A stretch of 38,724 bases of DNA from the IMG/VR virus record IMGVR_UViG_3300027896_000101, positions 1 to 38,724 of that record. The stretch is one strand, 5' to 3'. Source of the DNA: a virus. Shown here piece by piece: positions 101 through 36,797 of this stretch (its first letter is position 1; the number at the start of each line of letters is the position of its first letter). The notes beneath the pieces are model-generated. The model did not search any database and was not told where the DNA came from. It saw nothing but the letters and a program-made list of their open reading frames with translations. The translations under genes and the position numbers were made by a program.

Positions 101-1573
101 TTACATTACGTCCCGAAGATAGACTTCGATCTGGTCTTTGTAGACTCTAATCTCTTTTACTACGCCCATCAATTTCGCCTTCTGCTGTGCCAGGGGTAGC
201 TTCTTGAAATCTTCGGCAAAGGTAGAAAGAACATTGACCAACTCTTTGTGCCAGGACTTCATTTTGCGCTGGCGGTCCTTAGATTGCTCAATCTCCTTCT
301 GTGCTGCGAGCAAAGCCTCGTACCTTGTCTTCACCGGATCGTTTGCAATGGTGAACTGCTCATCGGAAATCCGGCCTTCCTTTAAGAGCCGGAGGTGCAT
401 CTGGAATTCCTTTTCACAGGCCATAGAATCATGTTTTAGCCGCTCCAACTCCCCAGCCCTATCCTCTGGCTTATCCCGCGAGGCTTTCAGTATTTCAAGA
501 GTCTTGTTCTTATCAGCGTACTTTCCTAGTTCCTCGAGGACGGCATCGTCAAGCAATGTGGCTAAGTGCGCATTGGCATGGTCACATAGTCGTCTGGCAT
601 CTTGATTATAACGGCAGCGGTAACGGCGGTAGGGCCGGCCTTCCCTTCTTTCCGTCTTGCCCACTAAGGACCCGCCGCAGTAGCCACAGTGGGCTATTCC
701 CGAAAGGAGATAGCCCGAAACGAATGTCCGCCCATGCATGCCGCGACGCGATGCCAGGGCGGAGCGCAGTTTATCCCATTCCCCCTTGGTTAGTATAGGA
801 GGATAGAAGTTGTCTATAGTGATGAGGTCGCTGTGGTCCCGCGACCTCTTGCCATACACTAAAGTGCCCTTGAGAGATTCATTCTTCAGTATAACTCTGA
901 CTGAGGGTGCTTCCCACATCGCACCATTTTTTGTCGTAATTCCTTCTTTGTTCAATTTCACTGCGATGCGGTAGTATCCAAAGTTCTGCTCGGTGACTAA
1001 ATGGAACATCTGCCTGATTACGGAGACCTCCGAGGGGTTAGGGACGAACTGGGTTATCCTCGCCCGCCCGTCCACTATGTCTTTGACACCATCGAACCCA
1101 TAGGGTACTCTGCCCACGTGAATTCCCTTTGATACCGCCCTGGATATGTTGGCCTTTATGCGCTCACTCGTTCTTTTTGATTCCGCGCCGGCCAGCCCAG
1201 CCCGGACCAGGAGCACAAGCTCCTCTTTGATGTCTTCATCGGTTGTTACGACCTCTACGCCAATGTCCTGCAGGGCCCAGATCCGCCTCAGTATTTCCTT
1301 GGGATTGCGACCGAACCTATCGAGGAATTGCACAACCACGACATCGGCGTTCTTCTCGGCTAGGAAGGTCAGCATGGACTGATATTGCTTTCTGTCGTCC
1401 CTTCGCCCAGAGGCAATGTCGGTATATGTCTTGATAGGGGTGAGGTTGTGGGTTTGACAATATGAGTTGCAACGTTGCGACTGGGTTTCGAGGGAGACAT
1501 GGTGCTCCCCGGACTGACCAACTGAGGAAACACGGAAGTAACCGATGGCACGTTTCACTGCAATAGTAGACAA
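101..1573 (-). CDS. int: large serine recombinase (phage integrase)
   Basis: Site-specific recombinase that would integrate and excise the phage at the radC site. The resolvase-type catalytic domain comes first, with motif GYFRVSS holding the nucleophile Ser (residue 16 from the chosen start) and the LDRFGRN motif. A recombinase domain follows, then a zinc ribbon (Cys 296, 299, 320, 330: HCGYCGG...RCRY...LC) and a C-terminal helical, coiled-coil-like region. A length near 490 residues fits large serine integrases. I chose the TTG at 1571-1573 because GAGG lies six bases upstream; another in-frame TTG at 1583-1585 lacks a ribosome site. The stop codon lies within the attP arm, two bases from the core. 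No separate excisionase is recognised. Confidence 0.93.
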   Translation of the reverse strand: MSTIAVKRAIGYFRVSSVGQSGEHHVSLETQSQRCNSYCQTHNLTPIKTYTDIASGRRDDRKQYQSMLTFLAEKNADVVVVQFLDRFGRNPKEILRRIWALQDIGVEVVTTDEDIKEELVLLVRAGLAGAESKRTSERIKANISRAVSKGIHVGRVPYGFDGVKDIVDGRARITQFVPNPSEVSVIRQMFHLVTEQNFGYYRIAVKLNKEGITTKNGAMWEAPSVRVILKNESLKGTLVYGKRSRDHSDLITIDNFYPPILTKGEWDKLRSALASRRGMHGRTFVSGYLLSGIAHCGYCGGSLVGKTERREGRPYRRYRCRYNQDARRLCDHANAHLATLLDDAVLEELGKYADKNKTLEILKASRDKPEDRAGELERLKHDSMACEKEFQMHLRLLKEGRISDEQFTIANDPVKTRYEALLAAQKEIEQSKDRQRKMKSWHKELVNVLSTFAEDFKKLPLAQQKAKLMGVVKEIRVYKDQIEVYLRDVM

Positions 1574-1588
1574 TATATACCTCAATGA

Positions 1589-2063: not shown

Positions 2064-2753
2064 TCATACCACCGTCCAATGGCCAGATAGAATAACTCGC
2101 CCTAAGTTCTCAACCCTAGCAGGGGCCATGATCTCTATTTCGCCACTGGAGCCGACGAGCCTTAGTCTATTGTCCTCGCGGTATAGCTTTTTACAGGTGA
2201 CTTCATTACCTATCCTGACAATGTATATCCGCCCGTCAGTGAATTCCGCATCGGGATCGACTATCAATAACTCGCCATCATGTAATCCGAATCCCTGGCA
2301 TGAGTCACCCTTTAGTCTGAGGCCATAGGGATGAAGCACTCCTGATAGCATCTGCTTAGGGACAGGCGCAAAATCAGTCACTTCTTGCTGTCGGTCTTCG
2401 AGAGGTCCGCCGGGGCATGTGCCCATCACCGGCACCCGAAATAATGTAGCGGCCTCGACTGCTGCTTTCAACTCATTGATAAGCAAAATTATGTCCCTGG
2501 AAGGGCTGACGCTTTCTGTTTGGAAGAGCGTTTCAGGTGGTACTTCGAGGGCAGTAGCTAGTTTTTCAGCAGTTTTTCGAGTTGGATTTGTGATTTTACC
2601 GCTTTCGAGTTGGCTAATATAAGCACGATTTATCCCAGATAATTTGGCAAGGTCTACCTGTGATAAGCCTTTAGCTTCTCGTAGGCGCTTTATTATGTGC
2701 CCGAGACCTTCATCTTGCAAGCCCTCCCCCTTTGTAAGGTTTATGTATAGCAT
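2064..2753 (-). CDS. LexA/CI-like phage repressor (XRE HTH plus S24 peptidase domain)
   Basis: Lysogeny repressor expected to bind operators in the 2754-2851 gap. Residues about 17-76 form an XRE helix-turn-helix (LSQVDLAKLSGINRAYISQLE). Residues about 105-229 are a LexA/S24 self-cleavage domain with nucleophile Ser151 in KGDSCQG and the general-base Lys188 or Lys189 in EVTCKKLY. The usual Ala-Gly or Cys-Gly cleavage site is not obvious; the Cys-Pro-Gly-Gly stretch around 113-116 is a candidate. By analogy with CI and LexA, RecA-stimulated cleavage would induce the prophage. The start could instead be a TTG 11 codons in; the ATG used has only a short AAGGA spacing. Confidence 0.92.
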   Translation of the reverse strand: MLYINLTKGEGLQDEGLGHIIKRLREAKGLSQVDLAKLSGINRAYISQLESGKITNPTRKTAEKLATALEVPPETLFQTESVSPSRDIILLINELKAAVEAATLFRVPVMGTCPGGPLEDRQQEVTDFAPVPKQMLSGVLHPYGLRLKGDSCQGFGLHDGELLIVDPDAEFTDGRIYIVRIGNEVTCKKLYREDNRLRLVGSSGEIEIMAPARVENLGRVILSGHWTVV

Positions 2754-22885: not shown

Positions 22886-23686
22886 ATGGGAAGACTATCA
22901 GGCAAAACGGGTAATGTCGCTGTCGGACTTCAGACGATCTTCGACGGCGAAACGGCATTGGATGAACAGGTTATTAGCAATGTAACCTATAGTCTGGATA
23001 CCAGCGATTACAAGGTGGGCAACGGCTCGGCAAAGTTGGCAGTAGGAGCATCCTTTACCACGGGCATCATAGGCTCTAAGGTCGTTACTTCGATGGACTT
23101 GACTCCGTACACTCAACTGATGGGATGGTTCAAGTCCTCGGTAGCCCTCAACGCCAGCGATAATGCCTTCGTGGTCGATGATACTGCCCTCTGCGCTAGC
23201 CCTACAAGGACGATTAACCTGCCGGCCTTGGCTGCGAATACGTGGACATACGTTAAGGTGACAGATGCCTTCACGGGATGCACGGCTATCATATCGGTAG
23301 GGCTCAAGCAGGTCGTCGATAAGGGCGCAATGAATATCTGGTGCGACCTGGTGCAAGCGGCGAAGGTTATCGCAGGAATCAAGAACTGGACGCTGAATTA
23401 CAAGATAGGCACTCAGGAGGTGACTGGGTTCGATTCTGGCGGAGTCAAGGAGTTTGCAGCTACGATCACCGAATGGAACGGGACATTTGACGGGTTCAAA
23501 GATGCTCTGCCTTTGAGCATCGGTACACTCATAGGGCTGGAGATGCAGGAGTACACGACTGCGACCATGCAGGCCAGAGGTACAGGGATCATAACGGACT
23601 TTACAGACAGCGTAGACGTTGCGGGAATCGTGACCTATAAGTACGCATTCACCGGAACTAAGGAACTTGTGCTGCCGTCAGCCTAG
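22886..23686 (+). CDS. tail tube protein, long paralogue with inserted jelly-roll-like domain
   Basis: A 266-residue protein. Residues 1-14 (MGRLSGKTGNVAVG) and 162-266 (IAGIKNWTLNYK...VDVAGIVTYKYAFTGT) align with the short tube protein encoded 16 bases upstream. Residues about 15-158 are an extra domain with a laminin/carbohydrate-binding jelly-roll look: SLDTSDYKVGNGSAKLAV, LTPYTQLMGWFKSS, LPALAANTWTYVKV, AIISVGLKQV and IWCDLV. Mixed tubes with a decorated minor subunit are known in other phages. The insertion lies near the N-terminus, so the domain would probably face outside, which is inference. Confidence 0.8.
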   Translation: MGRLSGKTGNVAVGLQTIFDGETALDEQVISNVTYSLDTSDYKVGNGSAKLAVGASFTTGIIGSKVVTSMDLTPYTQLMGWFKSSVALNASDNAFVVDDTALCASPTRTINLPALAANTWTYVKVTDAFTGCTAIISVGLKQVVDKGAMNIWCDLVQAAKVIAGIKNWTLNYKIGTQEVTGFDSGGVKEFAATITEWNGTFDGFKDALPLSIGTLIGLEMQEYTTATMQARGTGIITDFTDSVDVAGIVTYKYAFTGTKELVLPSA

Positions 23687-23703
23687 AAAACACGTAGCGG
23701 GAT

Positions 23704-23778
23704 CGCGGGATGGAGCAGTGGAAGCTCGGATGGCCCATAACCATCAGGTCGTTGGTTCGAGTCCAACTCCCGCTACCA
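23704..23778 (+). tRNA. tRNA-Met (CAU), initiator-like
   Basis: A full cloverleaf of 75 bases: acceptor CGCGGGA/TCCCGCT with a C1-U72 mismatch, D stem GAGC/GCTC, anticodon stem GATGG/CCATC with loop CCCATAA (anticodon CAT at 23736-23738), variable loop AGGTC, T stem GTTGG/CCAAC with loop TTCGAGT, then A and encoded CCA. The unpaired 1-72 position and the CGCGGG and GGAGCAG segments resemble bacterial initiator tRNA. Departures: position 33 is C instead of U, and the anticodon stem lacks the full three G-C pairs. A tRNA-Ile2 (lysidine) identity is less likely but not excluded. Confidence 0.88.
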
Positions 23779-23797
23779 AAATGGTAAAGGAGGAAAT

Positions 23798-24280
23798 TTG
23801 TTTAATCCCTTGGCAGACGAACTTATACAGGTAGATATTGGCAACGACCTCTGGCTTAAAATTAAGGTCGAACTATCAGAAGGCGAGTGGAGAAAACTAC
23901 AACGCTTCTATCTGAACCTCTTTGATTCCCCCAAAGTGCAGCAGGCAATACGGATTGTCACAGAAGGCCGTAGGCTGGGCAAGGAAGCCTCTGCAATAGA
24001 ATCCGAGGTGGAATCCCTCGGCTTAACCTCAGCTATTACTCAAGGCGCTCTTGTGAAGATTACCGAAGGCCAATCTATAGCTTACGTCATGGCTGGACTG
24101 AGAGAATGGAACCTGACGGGGAACGATGGCAAAGTGTTGCCGATTACTGAGGACACGCTATTAGGATTGAAGCGGCCTGTCTTTCAGGCGATAGCGGATG
24201 CCTGCACGAAGCAGTACCGGCCTATGGATGATGGACAAAAAAACTCCTTGAAACCAACGTCAGAAACGCCTGCACCATAG
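23798..24280 (+). CDS. tail assembly chaperone, short form (gpG-like)
   Basis: A 160-residue protein from TTG at 23798 with GGAGG four bases upstream. It lies between the tube and tape-measure genes, the standard place for this chaperone. Helical segments (EWRKLQRFYLNLF, VQQAIRIVTEGRRLGKE) and a core ending in QKNSLKPTSETPAP are consistent. It would coat the tape-measure protein during tail assembly. The mRNA also carries a -1 slippery site that yields a longer form. Confidence 0.78.
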   Translation: MFNPLADELIQVDIGNDLWLKIKVELSEGEWRKLQRFYLNLFDSPKVQQAIRIVTEGRRLGKEASAIESEVESLGLTSAITQGALVKITEGQSIAYVMAGLREWNLTGNDGKVLPITEDTLLGLKRPVFQAIADACTKQYRPMDDGQKNSLKPTSETPAP

Positions 24281-24435
24281 AAGGAGAGAGAATCTCGGCG
24301 CCGCCTTTCAGCGATGACACGATTCTACTTCTGAATACGCGCTGGTCGTATCGCGAGCTTATGGACACACCACACCGGATAATCGAGGAATTAAGGATTA
24401 AGTATCAGACGGAAATGATGCACGATGGCGAATAA
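23798..24435 (+). CDS. tail assembly chaperone, long form by -1 frameshift (gpGT-like)
   Basis: In the frame one base back from the short form, translation continues from 24244 through LLETNVRNACTIEGE, RWSYRELMDTPHRIIEELRI and KYQTEMMHDGE to a TAA at 24433-24435. This extension has no own start and fills the gap to the tape-measure gene exactly. RWSYRELMDTP and the following helix are typical of the T domain of such chaperones, which contacts the tube protein. The product would be about 212 residues, made at a minor fraction of the short form. Confidence 0.82.
24238..24244 (+). promoter_or_regulatory. -1 ribosomal frameshift slippery site A AAA AAC
   Basis: Seven A residues (24237-24243) followed by C; in the zero frame the codons are CAA AAA AAC, so the heptamer is A AAA AAC, the classic slippery sequence. 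CTCCTT (24244-24249) can pair with AAGGAG (24281-24286) as a possible downstream stem with a long loop. Confidence 0.82.
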
Positions 24436-31628: not shown

Positions 31629-32412
31629 ACAAAATGAGTGTATCACTATCTACAAGAACCGCAAACCATCGCACAACCGACTGCTGATCGGCACGCCCAC
31701 TCTGGGTATCGTCAGAATGGAATGGACGCAGGCCAGGTACGCCCAGGTCATACCGCCCAACTGGATGGCAGCGCACAGTTCCGTAGGCTTCTCGCATAAC
31801 ATACCTCTGGGACACCTGGTTGCCGATGCCCAAAACATCATCGTCAACACGGCAGTCAGGGATAACTACGAGTGGCTACTGTTGCACGAGGACGATGTTG
31901 TGCTGCCCGTGGACGCTTTTATCCGCTTGAACGAGTACATGAAGAAGCGCGACATCCCCGTCGTGTCCGGCCTCTATTGCCTCAAGGCAAGTCCCACGGA
32001 ACCGCTCGTCTACCGGGGCCGGGGCAATAGTTCCTATTCTAAGTTCAAGATGGGAGACCTAGTATGGTGCGATGGGGTTCCCACGGGTTGTCTTCTTATC
32101 CATTGTTCATTGCTCAGGTTGATGTCTGATGAGAGCCCTGATTATCAGACTCCGTCAGGGCAGATTGTTAAACGGGTCTTCGAGACTCCAGCCAAAGCCT
32201 GGTTTGACCCAGAGCACATGACCTTGCAGCAGGCCAGCGGCACCTCCGACATTTATTGGTGTGACCGCGTGATGAAGGAGAAGGTGCTGGAGAGAGCAGG
32301 CTGGAAGAGGATAGCCAAAAGGAAGTGGCCGTTTCTGGTAGATACCAATATCAAGTGCCTGCATATCGACCTCAATACTGGAACCACCTATCCCATCGGC
32401 GGCTATAAATGA
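31618..32412 (+). CDS. glycosyltransferase-like protein (GT-A fold)
   Basis: A 264-residue protein from GTG at 31618 with AGGA about eight bases upstream. NRLLIGTPTLGIVRMEW at the start, YEWLLLHEDDVVLPVDAFIRL (acidic DxD-type site) and IPVVSGLYCLKA, then GVPTGCLLIHCSLL, follow the order of GT-A nucleotide-sugar transferases. No membrane segment is seen, so it would act in the cytoplasm. It overlaps both neighbours and precedes the large propeller proteins, which are Ser/Thr/Asn-rich potential acceptors. Confidence 0.75.
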   Translation: MKGKQNECITIYKNRKPSHNRLLIGTPTLGIVRMEWTQARYAQVIPPNWMAAHSSVGFSHNIPLGHLVADAQNIIVNTAVRDNYEWLLLHEDDVVLPVDAFIRLNEYMKKRDIPVVSGLYCLKASPTEPLVYRGRGNSSYSKFKMGDLVWCDGVPTGCLLIHCSLLRLMSDESPDYQTPSGQIVKRVFETPAKAWFDPEHMTLQQASGTSDIYWCDRVMKEKVLERAGWKRIAKRKWPFLVDTNIKCLHIDLNTGTTYPIGGYK

Positions 32413-34559
32413 GCGGTTATCTTGGGCTGACCACTGGTAACAACACATATGCCGAGGGTTCTGGCAACCTTGACGCTATGCGCTTCCAGAACGGTATTGG
32501 CGCTAGTGCCTGGACGCAGAAAGCCAACCTGACCCATGCCGCCGCCGATATTCCAGGGGTCGTCTACAATGGCAAGCTATATATATTTGGTGGCTATGGA
32601 ACAAGTAGCACGGATTACCTCAATTATACGCAGATATATGACCCTAGTACCAACACCTGGTCCCAGGGCACCGTCATGCCCACAGCGAGATGGGGAGCTG
32701 CTGCCGCCGTTGTAAACGGGAAGATATATGTCTTCGGCGGCAAAACATCTGGTGGGAATTCAGCCAAATGCGAAATCTACGATATAGCTGGCAACTCATG
32801 GACTACGGGGACTGACATTCCGTCTGCGATTAGGGATGGCTCAATGGCAGTAACGGTCGGCGGTTATATCTACCTTTTTTATTTAGGTAATACATGGTTA
32901 TTTGACCCCAGTGGAAATGGCGGTCTTGGTTCCTACACAGCAAAAACCGCCCCACCTGTTAATAAGGTATGGGCAACCTGCGGATATGTAAATGTCAGCG
33001 GGGAAGATAGGATATACATAATTGCTGGATACGATAATGTTTCCACAAGCTACAATTCCAACTATTACTACAAACCAACCACCAATGACTGGAGTTCCGC
33101 TCAGGCGCCAGCTCCCTATACAGCCAGAGGAATGACCCGAGACAATCCTGTATATAATGGCCTGATATACTTCGGGTTTGGTTTGTTTGCTAGTCCTTTT
33201 TACGATGGATTATTCGCCTACAATCCATCAACAGATAAATGGTATTGCCATCTGGGGCCATCTATATTAGGTGGCAGAGATGGTATCGCCTGTGGCTTTA
33301 TTGGAAGCCAACTTTATTGTGTCGGCGGACGAAATTCAGTTTCTACCCCCGTTGGGCTGAATTATAATGAGTATTTTGACGTTGGCGTTAACTCCGCTAA
33401 CATTACTGACATTGAAATACGCTACAACCAAGCCTCTCCTAGCGGTAGTGTTCATCTAGGCATCTATGCTGAAGATGCCTATTATGGGACACCCTCAATC
33501 TTGGTTTTGGATGCAGGGGCAGTAATAATAGCAAACGGCTGGGTAACGATTACTGGCCTCTCAATTCCGATAGGGTACAATGCCTGGGTCTGGTTAGTCT
33601 TTGACCAGAGCGCGGCCAATGGCATCTATTACCAGACTGGAGAACCTGCCGGTTCCCACGGTTATGCAGCTCAGGCATACGGAGTTTTACCTAATCCATG
33701 CCCAACTTTAGCATCTAATACCAACCAGTATGTTATGCGGGCTTACGTTGTCACCGAGCTATCGGCGCCAATCAACGACCAGATAAATATAAATGAGAAT
33801 GTTACTGGTGCAGTAGTTTCTAGCGGACTCAGTGCCACCATCTACGATACCATCAACGCCAGTGAGTTGGTATCTCCACTCTTGCCTTTCTGCACGGTCA
33901 CCCTTTTCGATACGGTCAATGTCTCCGAGTCGGTAACACGACTCTTAATCTTGGCGTGGTCTGTCTATGACACGGTGAATGTCTCCGAGTCCGTTACTCC
34001 CAGTCTGGTCACGTCATTGTCAGCCTATGATACGGTCGGCGTCTCCGAACTCGTGACTCCTCTGTTGCCATTTCAAGCGGCCTCGGTCTACGATACTGTC
34101 AGAGCGACCGAGCAGGTCTCTCCTTATTTGGCGGTGACCGCGAGCCTCTACGATACGGTAAACGTCGCTGAGACTGTGATCGGCGAGGTGATTAGCGTTG
34201 CGCCGGTGACCGCCACCGTCTACGACACCATAGATGTCAGGGACGAGGTGACACCTACCGTGTTGGTCGCCCGGTCACTCCTCGACACCGTCAATGTGTC
34301 CGAGCAGGTTACTCCAACTTTATTGACAGGCATCTTGACCTATGACTCGGTTACCGTAAATGAGTTGGTCGCTCCTGACCAACTCCTGTCGACCACCACC
34401 TACGACACGGTCACCAGCAGCGAGTCGGTAACTCCTCTGCTTCCATTCGTAGGTATGACTCTGTACGAAACGGTAAACGTAACCGAGAACCTCCTGGCTG
34501 CGGTGCCTGGTGTTGCCCTGGACGTCAGTATCTACGACGTGGAATACGCTTATGTCTGA
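32409..34559 (+). CDS. Kelch-propeller receptor-binding-like protein with C-terminal repeat stalk
   Basis: A 716-residue protein. Residues about 35-330 are a Kelch beta-propeller with six blade signatures (VVYNGKLYIFGGYG, AVVNGKIYVFGGK, and degenerate later ones ending SQLYCVGGRN). Residues 330-450 form a jelly-roll-like domain (ITDIEIRYNQASPSGSVHLGIYAED). Residues 455-716 are 12 full copies and one partial copy of a 20-24-residue repeat, consensus YDTVNVSExVTPLLPF plus a short linker. No signal peptide. Position in the tail-tip cluster and the propeller suggest receptor or glycan binding. The start overlaps the upstream stop. Confidence 0.78.
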   Translation: MSGYLGLTTGNNTYAEGSGNLDAMRFQNGIGASAWTQKANLTHAAADIPGVVYNGKLYIFGGYGTSSTDYLNYTQIYDPSTNTWSQGTVMPTARWGAAAAVVNGKIYVFGGKTSGGNSAKCEIYDIAGNSWTTGTDIPSAIRDGSMAVTVGGYIYLFYLGNTWLFDPSGNGGLGSYTAKTAPPVNKVWATCGYVNVSGEDRIYIIAGYDNVSTSYNSNYYYKPTTNDWSSAQAPAPYTARGMTRDNPVYNGLIYFGFGLFASPFYDGLFAYNPSTDKWYCHLGPSILGGRDGIACGFIGSQLYCVGGRNSVSTPVGLNYNEYFDVGVNSANITDIEIRYNQASPSGSVHLGIYAEDAYYGTPSILVLDAGAVIIANGWVTITGLSIPIGYNAWVWLVFDQSAANGIYYQTGEPAGSHGYAAQAYGVLPNPCPTLASNTNQYVMRAYVVTELSAPINDQININENVTGAVVSSGLSATIYDTINASELVSPLLPFCTVTLFDTVNVSESVTRLLILAWSVYDTVNVSESVTPSLVTSLSAYDTVGVSELVTPLLPFQAASVYDTVRATEQVSPYLAVTASLYDTVNVAETVIGEVISVAPVTATVYDTIDVRDEVTPTVLVARSLLDTVNVSEQVTPTLLTGILTYDSVTVNELVAPDQLLSTTTYDTVTSSESVTPLLPFVGMTLYETVNVTENLLAAVPGVALDVSIYDVEYAYV
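33771..34556 (+). repeat. protein-level tandem repeat array, Kelch protein
   Basis: Twelve full units and one partial unit of 20-24 codons. The same peptide is spelled with different codons between units (for example YDTVN in several versions), so the array is old and maintained at protein level. The same repeat recurs in the next gene. Confidence 0.85.
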
Positions 34560-34586: not shown

Positions 34587-36797
34587 ATGCCAAGTTACGT
34601 CGCCGTCGCTTCGGCGGGAAGCAACTCACTCGTTATTGTAGACGTGTCGAACCCGACTAGCCCTGCAATATCAGGCTGGAAGAATGGTTCAGGGTCACCA
34701 TACTACCTGAATGCGGCTGACGGTGTTTTCGTCAGGGACACCTATGCCTACGTCGCTGCCGCGAACGATAATTCCCTGTCCATTTTCGATATTTCAAACC
34801 CCACTAGCCCAATCTTCAAGGGTCACATAGCCGGGACTGGCTCACCCAACTATCTAGGTTGCCCCATAGGAGTTTTCGTTTTAGGAAACTACGCCTACGT
34901 TGCTGCCAACTCAGATAACTCGCTGACCATCATAGACATATCAAACCCTGCTAGTCCGACGTTTAAGGGCCATATAGCTGGCAGCGGGTCACCAAACTAT
35001 TTGGGTGGAGCATTTGGCGTCTACGTATTGGGGAACTATGCGTATGTCACTGCTCACGACGATAATTCGCTGACCATTATAGACATCTCTGATCCTGCAA
35101 ATCCTACGTTCAAGGGACATATAGCCGGCTCTGGGACACCCAACTACTTGCTGGCGGCAGAGGGAGTCTTCGTCTTAGGAAATTACGCCTACGTTGCTGC
35201 TCCGACTGATGATTCGTTCAGCATTTTCGATATATCCGATTCAGCTAATCCGACTTTGAAGGGGAACATACATGGAAACGGGCCTCCGAATCATCTGATG
35301 GACGCAACTGGAGTTGTTGTCTCAGGAAACTACGCCTACATTGCCTGTTATTCCGAGAACTCGCTGACTATCATAGACGTGTCCGATCCTGCTAACCCTG
35401 CGTTCAAGAGTTACGTCACCAACGTCTATCTGTCGGGGGCAAATTCAGTTTGCCTCAGGGGGAACTATGCCTATGTCGCTGCTCAGACCGATAGCGCTTT
35501 CACAGTAATAGATGTATCCGACCCGGCGAACCCCAGTTATCAAGGTAGCACGACTGGCTACGGACTGCTGAACCTGGCGGCCTCGGTTTATTTGATTCCG
35601 TATGTGGCTGCAAGTCTGTACGACAAGGTTACTCTCAGCGAGACCGTCAGCGGCGAAATGGTGATCTCTGGGGATTTATCCGTCCTGCTCTATGATATTG
35701 TCTCACCGACGTTCCGCTGGACGATTAGTCTTTATGACACGGTCAGCGTAAGTGAAAGCGTTGCTGGCGCGGTGATTACTGCCGGAGCACTGACCGTCAG
35801 CCTCTACGATACCGCGAATGTCTCGGAACAGTTAACCCCGCTCATTCCGTTCATAGCAACGTCAATCTACGGTACGGTCAATATCTCGGAACAGATAACC
35901 CCTCTGCTTCCACTGATAATGGCTGGTGTCTATGACACAGTCGGCGTTAGCGACAGTGTTACCGGGCAACTGATTACCGCTGGCACTCTGAGCGCCAGTA
36001 TCTATGATATGCTCAGTATCAGCGAACAGGTGAGTTCTCTCGTCCCATTTGAAGCTGTCAGTATCTACGATACCGTCAACATCAGCGAACAGGTCTCACC
36101 GGCGCTCCTCACGGCTACAAGCCTTTATGATAGGGTTAACGCCAGCGAGCAGGTTTCTCCAGCGTTGCTCATGGCTCTGAACGTCTATGATACTGTTAAC
36201 GTCAGCGAGTTAATTAGCCCGAGTCTGTTAATCGCTCTCAGTATTTACGACAGCGTGGTAATAAGCGAAGGCGTTACTGGACAGGTGATTACCGCTGGCA
36301 CGCTGACCTCCAGCATCTCCGACACTGTGAACATCACGGACCAGGTAGTCCCTCTGTTTCCATTCGAGACGGCCTCAATCTATGACACCGTAAGTTTGTC
36401 TGAGCAGATTACGCCCTCACTTCCGACAGGGACGAGTCTGTCCGACAAAGTCAACGTCAGCGACCTGGTTTCCGCAGTCCAGCCAATCACTGCTGGTCTC
36501 TACGATACCGCCGTTGCGTCGGAGCAACTCGCCCTCCTCATTCCCTTCGACGCCGCGAGCGTCTTCGAGACCGTCAAGGTCAGCGAGCAGATAATGGCCG
36601 CCCTTCTCATGGCTTTTAGTCTCTACGATACCCTAATGATCTCGGAACAGGTTTCCACGTCCTGGGGGATGGCCAAATCGTCGGTCGTGAGAGTTTACCT
36701 GCCAGTGAGGGAGATGGACGTAGAATTGCCGAATAGGGGCCTGCTGGTCTTCTTGCCGGATGAAGGAATGACTGTAACGTCGGAGATGGAACAATGA
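34587..36797 (+). CDS. LVIVD-propeller receptor-binding-like protein with the same repeat stalk
   Basis: A 736-residue protein. Residues 1-340 hold seven LVIVD-type blades of about 47 residues (for example NSLTIIDISNPASPTFKGH and NYAYVAA), a likely seven-bladed beta-propeller. Residues about 343-697 are some 17 units of the YDTVNISEQVTPLLPF-type repeat found in the Kelch protein, in two forms: 20-21 residues, and about 24 with VTGQVITAGTL. A 40-residue non-repeat end follows (VVRVYLPVREMDVELPNRG), whose stop overlaps the BppU-like gene. Probably a second receptor-binding protein built on the same stalk. Confidence 0.78.
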   Translation: MPSYVAVASAGSNSLVIVDVSNPTSPAISGWKNGSGSPYYLNAADGVFVRDTYAYVAAANDNSLSIFDISNPTSPIFKGHIAGTGSPNYLGCPIGVFVLGNYAYVAANSDNSLTIIDISNPASPTFKGHIAGSGSPNYLGGAFGVYVLGNYAYVTAHDDNSLTIIDISDPANPTFKGHIAGSGTPNYLLAAEGVFVLGNYAYVAAPTDDSFSIFDISDSANPTLKGNIHGNGPPNHLMDATGVVVSGNYAYIACYSENSLTIIDVSDPANPAFKSYVTNVYLSGANSVCLRGNYAYVAAQTDSAFTVIDVSDPANPSYQGSTTGYGLLNLAASVYLIPYVAASLYDKVTLSETVSGEMVISGDLSVLLYDIVSPTFRWTISLYDTVSVSESVAGAVITAGALTVSLYDTANVSEQLTPLIPFIATSIYGTVNISEQITPLLPLIMAGVYDTVGVSDSVTGQLITAGTLSASIYDMLSISEQVSSLVPFEAVSIYDTVNISEQVSPALLTATSLYDRVNASEQVSPALLMALNVYDTVNVSELISPSLLIALSIYDSVVISEGVTGQVITAGTLTSSISDTVNITDQVVPLFPFETASIYDTVSLSEQITPSLPTGTSLSDKVNVSDLVSAVQPITAGLYDTAVASEQLALLIPFDAASVFETVKVSEQIMAALLMAFSLYDTLMISEQVSTSWGMAKSSVVRVYLPVREMDVELPNRGLLVFLPDEGMTVTSEMEQ
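35613..36678 (+). repeat. protein-level tandem repeat array, LVIVD protein
   Basis: About 17 units (one degenerate near the start) of the same repeat as in 33771-34556. Synonymous codons vary between units, so no long exact DNA repeats are present. Confidence 0.85.

Follow-up and report, generated by a model that had tools for sequence, protein, structure and literature searches.

A leader strand complementary to the 3' acceptor strand of a phage initiator tRNA, and its recurrence in other phages

The window, the whole 38,724-nt stretch of viral DNA that was analysed (IMG/VR record IMGVR_UViG_3300027896_000101), encodes a single tRNA, which belongs to the initiator class and is preceded by a leader strand, GTAGCGGGA, that is exactly complementary over 9 nt to the 3' acceptor strand TCCCGCTAC, A73 and C74 included. 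Nine further viral initiator tRNAs combine a GCTA 3' end with a GTAGC leader at the window's offset, and this recurrence in other phages suggests that the arrangement is probably not an accident. The reading that we favour, tentatively and from modelled structures, is that the leader delays the maturation of an initiator tRNA embedded in a late operon. Initiator-class phage tRNAs and the rare loop variant C33 are known, while the leader arrangement is apparently new; no description of it was found in the open-access literature, a weak absence that covers open-access papers only.

Setting and class of the tRNA

By its gene content the phage is a temperate siphophage, with a serine recombinase, a CI/S24-type repressor, a terminase, a capsid gene and a siphophage tail module (Table 1). 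In a search for the host by portal, terminase and capsid, the best cellular match came from one Chloroflexota MAG, whose short contigs encode a capsid at 52%, and because this match is too weak, no host is named. Two long late genes (32409-34559 and 34587-36797) carry Kelch repeats and LVIVD repeats; they possibly encode host-binding beta-propeller proteins at the tail end.

Table 1. Features of the window discussed in the text
Feature	Position	Strand	Basis or remark
Serine recombinase	101-1585	-	
CI/S24-type repressor	2064-2753	-	
Major tail protein family gene, upstream of tRNA	22886-23686	+	PHROG 1407
Leader strand GTAGCGGGA, competing 5' acceptor strand	23694-23702	+	Reverse complement of nt 66-74
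Initiator-class tRNA-Met(CAU), 75 nt, CCA encoded	23704-23778	+	ARAGORN (whole window: single tRNA gene, tRNA-Met(CAT)); Rfam RF00005
Anticodon arm GATGG CCCATAA CCATC	23729-23745	+	Sequence; U29-A41, G30-C40, G31-C39
C at tRNA position 33 (normally U)	23735	+	5' of anticodon CAU, 23736-23738
3' acceptor strand TCCCGCT + A73 + C74 (TCCCGCTAC)	23768-23776	+	Contested by leader and nt 1-7
Probable tail assembly chaperone gene, downstream	23798-24280	+	TTG start; AGGAGG site 23788-23793

An earlier sequence-only reading of this DNA had described a lone tRNA between tube and chaperone genes. No promoter-like site above chance was found near the tRNA. It is probably co-transcribed with the late tail-gene operon, because it begins 17 nt past the stop codon of the major-tail-protein gene and ends 19 nt before the TTG start of a gene with a good ribosome-binding site. 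The downstream gene itself matches nothing in PHROG or Pfam, and its placement ahead of the tape measure gene makes it a probable chaperone gene. Near its 3' end there is a slippery -1 heptamer, A AAA AAC within CAA AAA AAC (24236-24244), after which the -1 frame runs without a stop as far as the TAA at 24433-24435 and overlaps the start of the tape-measure gene at 24425. This resembles the frameshifted gene pair that is common for tail assembly chaperones.

The tRNA scores 54.7 bits against Rfam RF00005 (gathering score 29). It is identical to E. coli metY at 58/77 positions, to metT at 45/78 and to ileX at 46/76, and the much closer match to metY therefore places it in the initiator class. 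Other features typical of bacterial initiators are the absence of a Watson-Crick pair at 1-72 (a C1·U72 mismatch followed by six acceptor pairs), A11:U24 in the D stem, the G30-C40 and G31-C39 pairs, the anticodon CAU, A73 and a cloverleaf fold. The mismatch at 1-72, A11:U24, the two G-C pairs, CAU, A73 and the encoded CCA are shared with metY. Where metY has U33, G29-C41 and A72, the window tRNA has C33, U29-A41 and U72, and it further differs by a shorter D loop and the strand-swapping leader. On these sequence features the tRNA is real and clearly of the initiator (fMet) class, as had been proposed, and it looks like a functional copy, carried by a phage, of an initiator tRNA gene from bacteria. 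An elongator or Ile2 identity, the outcome that the earlier reading had set against its own proposal, is rejected on the class features and on the identities to metY, metT and ileX. A special initiation role at TTG or GTG starts, also suggested there, is unsupported.

The anticodon arm and C33

The anticodon loop reads C32-C33-C-A-U-A-A. The C33 and the C1·U72 mismatch that drew attention to this tRNA are real in the sequence, but the three G-C pairs of the anticodon stem are not lost as was thought. Two of the three pairs at 29-31:39-41 are retained and 29:41 alone is changed, to U-A, a pair that is common among phage initiators (15/87 viral initiators with C33 and 19/79 with U33).

Nor is C33 a near-unique oddity: other initiators of phages and of bacteria have it too, and it has been reported in the metazoan initiator tRNA (PMC9023262). 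A scan confined to C33 identified at least 119 viral contigs with such initiators. When position 33 was left open, 120 viral matches were obtained, of which 113 are new loci, all with U33; about 7 (~6%) have C33, a figure obtained by subtraction. In bacterial genomes at least 116 stretches contain initiators with a base other than U33, nearly all of them C33, in lineages that include Weissella, Leuconostoc, Patescibacteria, Elusimicrobia, Phycisphaerae, Erysipelotrichaceae and others. C33 is rare in Chloroflexota, with three genomes among the matches listed. Among 50,697 records of catalogued phages, none matched exactly either of two 32-nt C33 probes, which represent two stem sequences; the best match was 31/32. 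The recurrence in viral and bacterial initiators rules out that C33 is unique or a sequencing error. Judged from these comparisons, C33 is a tolerated variant of initiators and no sign of a dead gene, because it is recurrent in phages and in several bacterial lineages. The census indicates that the "universal U33" has many exceptions in bacterial and phage initiators.

The metazoan initiator tRNA-Met shares C33 in the loop (PMC9023262), whereas the window tRNA has C·U rather than A:U at mature position 1-72 and is a bacterial-type gene with an encoded CCA. Other departures were seen in passing. In a Salinivibrio siamensis contig, one host initiator tRNA copy has A33 among otherwise near-identical U33 copies. 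In a small Chloroflexota genome (G018:C1:1017423-1024242), a phage portal gene lies ~5 kb from a second initiator-like tRNA, which is divergent and possibly belongs to a prophage.

The leader strand and its relatives

The complementarity of the leader ends exactly at the boundary between acceptor and T stem, which is what an RNA helix would give and so supports leader pairing. That an upstream AGCGGGA pairs perfectly with TCCCGCT had been noticed from the letters alone. The pairing holds, but the copy lies at 23696-23702 rather than 23695-23701, and its extent had been understated at seven of the nine nucleotides. The idea of competing 5' strands is supported, and with more strength than the earlier reading could have foreseen.

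For the same precursor, ViennaRNA, which takes no account of the tertiary structure of a tRNA, its modification or its folding during transcription, gives -32.0 kcal/mol for a leader-paired cloverleaf and -26.7 for the mature cloverleaf. For pairing of nt 66-72 with the leader, the predicted mean probability is 0.98 in the window and ranges over 0.53-1.00 among the nine relatives; it exceeds 0.5 in 10/191 other viral initiators (~5%) and in 8/111 bacterial initiators. Separately, the tRNA 3' end may pair with the trailer as a short hairpin (TACCA AAA TGGTA, 23773-23786), which is unused in the predicted fold of 23687-23782, a stretch that ends inside it.

The leader scans were complete over 2.9 million viral contigs. 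The GCGGG direct repeat was found with three tRNAs, those of L110 and L403 and the twin of the window's. In all three, GTA precedes the repeat and pairs with U72-A73-C74 (with G·U at 74 in L403), and because all three carry this pairing-extending GTA, the complementarity is, as judged from sequence, not chance. In 114 stretches, an initiator-like 5' end of any kind is preceded by GTAGC at -10, an offset that was set after the window had been seen. Eleven of these, window included, are initiator tRNAs, and 10/11 end in GCTA at nt 70-73, compared with 53/191 viral initiators collected blind to the leader; for the 9/10 that remain without the window, the chance is near 1e-4 by arithmetic. The leader pairs at 9-10 of 10 positions, G·U counted, in L110, L403, L454 and L476. 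The same arrangement with less complete pairing is seen in L480, L510, L490, L415 and L450, the last two pairing at just 8/10 positions.

At the four positions that the search left unfixed, the nine relatives form 28/36 pairs. Tails drawn from other U72 initiators would give 20.2 (2/20,000 draws as good as 28), and partners shuffled within the set 22.9 (62/20,000 permutations as good). On this evidence the matching of each leader to its own stem is beyond chance, with probabilities that are optimistic, since the relatives share tRNA ancestry and are not fully independent. L480 and L510, for example, have a common leader, and L415 and L454 align over 95 nt. The best cases differ in the stem (GGTAGCGGCG/CGCCGCTACC in L454, GTAGCGGGG in L110, GTAGCGGGA in the window), and the gene neighbours are mostly unrelated, with tail genes in the window, a RecT-like gene in L110 and a ParB-like gene further downstream in L403. 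In three relatives the upstream ORF terminates at the TAG of the leader. A leader counterpart for A, C or G at position 72 was sought in 51 stretches and gave no good pairing. A general complementarity between leader and 3' end in phage tRNAs was also considered and rejected (4/223 viral tRNA-Met against 1.7 expected; 5/551 other viral tRNAs against 3.0). Three further viral initiator tRNAs have a leader predicted to displace the acceptor strand at other offsets.

Possible roles of the leader

In the favoured reading, the leader strand would capture nt 66-74 in the transcript in a 9-bp helix that stacks on the T stem, with nt 1-7 left unpaired and A73 and C74 hidden. The L15 loop of RNase P must pair with a free 3' RCC, and because of this requirement the leader-paired precursor is proposed to be a slow substrate. 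The operon mRNA would then stay mostly intact, sparing the tail-gene transcript from cleavage, and a switch to the mature cloverleaf would release the initiator tRNA slowly or in part. Pairing of the leader with the RCCA is a known RNase P anti-determinant, and just two pairs lower the bacterial kcat/Km ~13-fold (PMC9433436; PMC10731613). In the predicted fold of the window U(-9):A73 and G(-10):C74 supply at least two such pairs. As in the pre-tRNAs described earlier (PMC9433436), the leader would pair with R73 and C74 and lengthen the acceptor helix, but there N-1 to N-3 pair atop an intact acceptor stem, whereas the window leader would replace the whole 5' acceptor strand. It is unlikely, though conceivable, that leader and acceptor are a dedicated two-state switch for the timing or occurrence of tRNA release, and that leader and tRNA move between phages as a regulated cassette. 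The reason for phage tRNAs, initiator tRNAs above all, is still debated, and if a recurrent leader does win the competition with the acceptor strand of the tRNA itself, it would be a simple control of tRNA release from a protein-coding transcript.

The main rival, also quite possible, is that this is an ordinary phage initiator tRNA with a non-functional repeat. A DNA duplication, or a template switch, at the inverted repeat of the acceptor would have created the leader repeat on one or a few occasions, and descent would have passed it on with the tRNA cassette. The joint alignment of leader and tRNA between several phages suggests such shared descent, a tandem duplication of GCGGGAT is another way to read the window repeat, and pairing is incomplete in five relatives. 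However, duplication of the 5' strand would not yield the GTA that extends pairing to U72-A73-C74, and stems differ among the relatives while each leader still matches its own partner more often than under permutation. Bacterial initiators with the same 3' end also lack the leader (0/301 Chloroflexota genomes). That the gene is decayed or a non-initiator (elongator or Ile2) is extremely improbable: C33 and a displaced acceptor stem might resemble decay, but every stem is intact, CCA is encoded and nearly all initiator features are present, and a related phage (capsid 55%, portal 46%) retains a C33, C1·U72, U29-A41 initiator tRNA at a different locus, upstream of terminase.

C33, perhaps with the hidden 3' end, could instead shield the tRNA from host defences that cut tRNAs, so that the phage could keep initiating once host tRNA-fMet is destroyed. 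One such defence is VapC, which cleaves the anticodon arm of the initiator tRNA. Phage tRNA anticodon loops often differ from those of the host and are predicted to avoid anticodon nucleases (PMC10264068), and the Chloroflexota MAG with the nearest cellular capsid relative has a U33 initiator. This explanation is nevertheless rather improbable, as C33 is normal in several bacterial lineages, where evasion is unneeded as an explanation, and phages are reported generally to avoid encoding tRNA-fMet if the anticodon itself is targeted, for example by VapC-LT2 in S. flexneri (PMC10264068). The window tRNA shares with the phage tRNAs of that study a departure from the usual loop, but here the altered position is 33, and the tRNA is an initiator. 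The tRNA may also be a decoy for host nucleases, as the earlier reading put forward. A last alternative, which is very unlikely, has RNase P use the upstream strand and cut before A(-8), giving an 83-nt tRNA with an A1:U72 pair. The leader-paired form does present a 7-bp acceptor and a 5-bp T stem, but eight additional nt would separate the acceptor from the D stem in the product, and RCC recognition would be blocked at that site by the pairing of A73 and C74 with nt -9 and -10.
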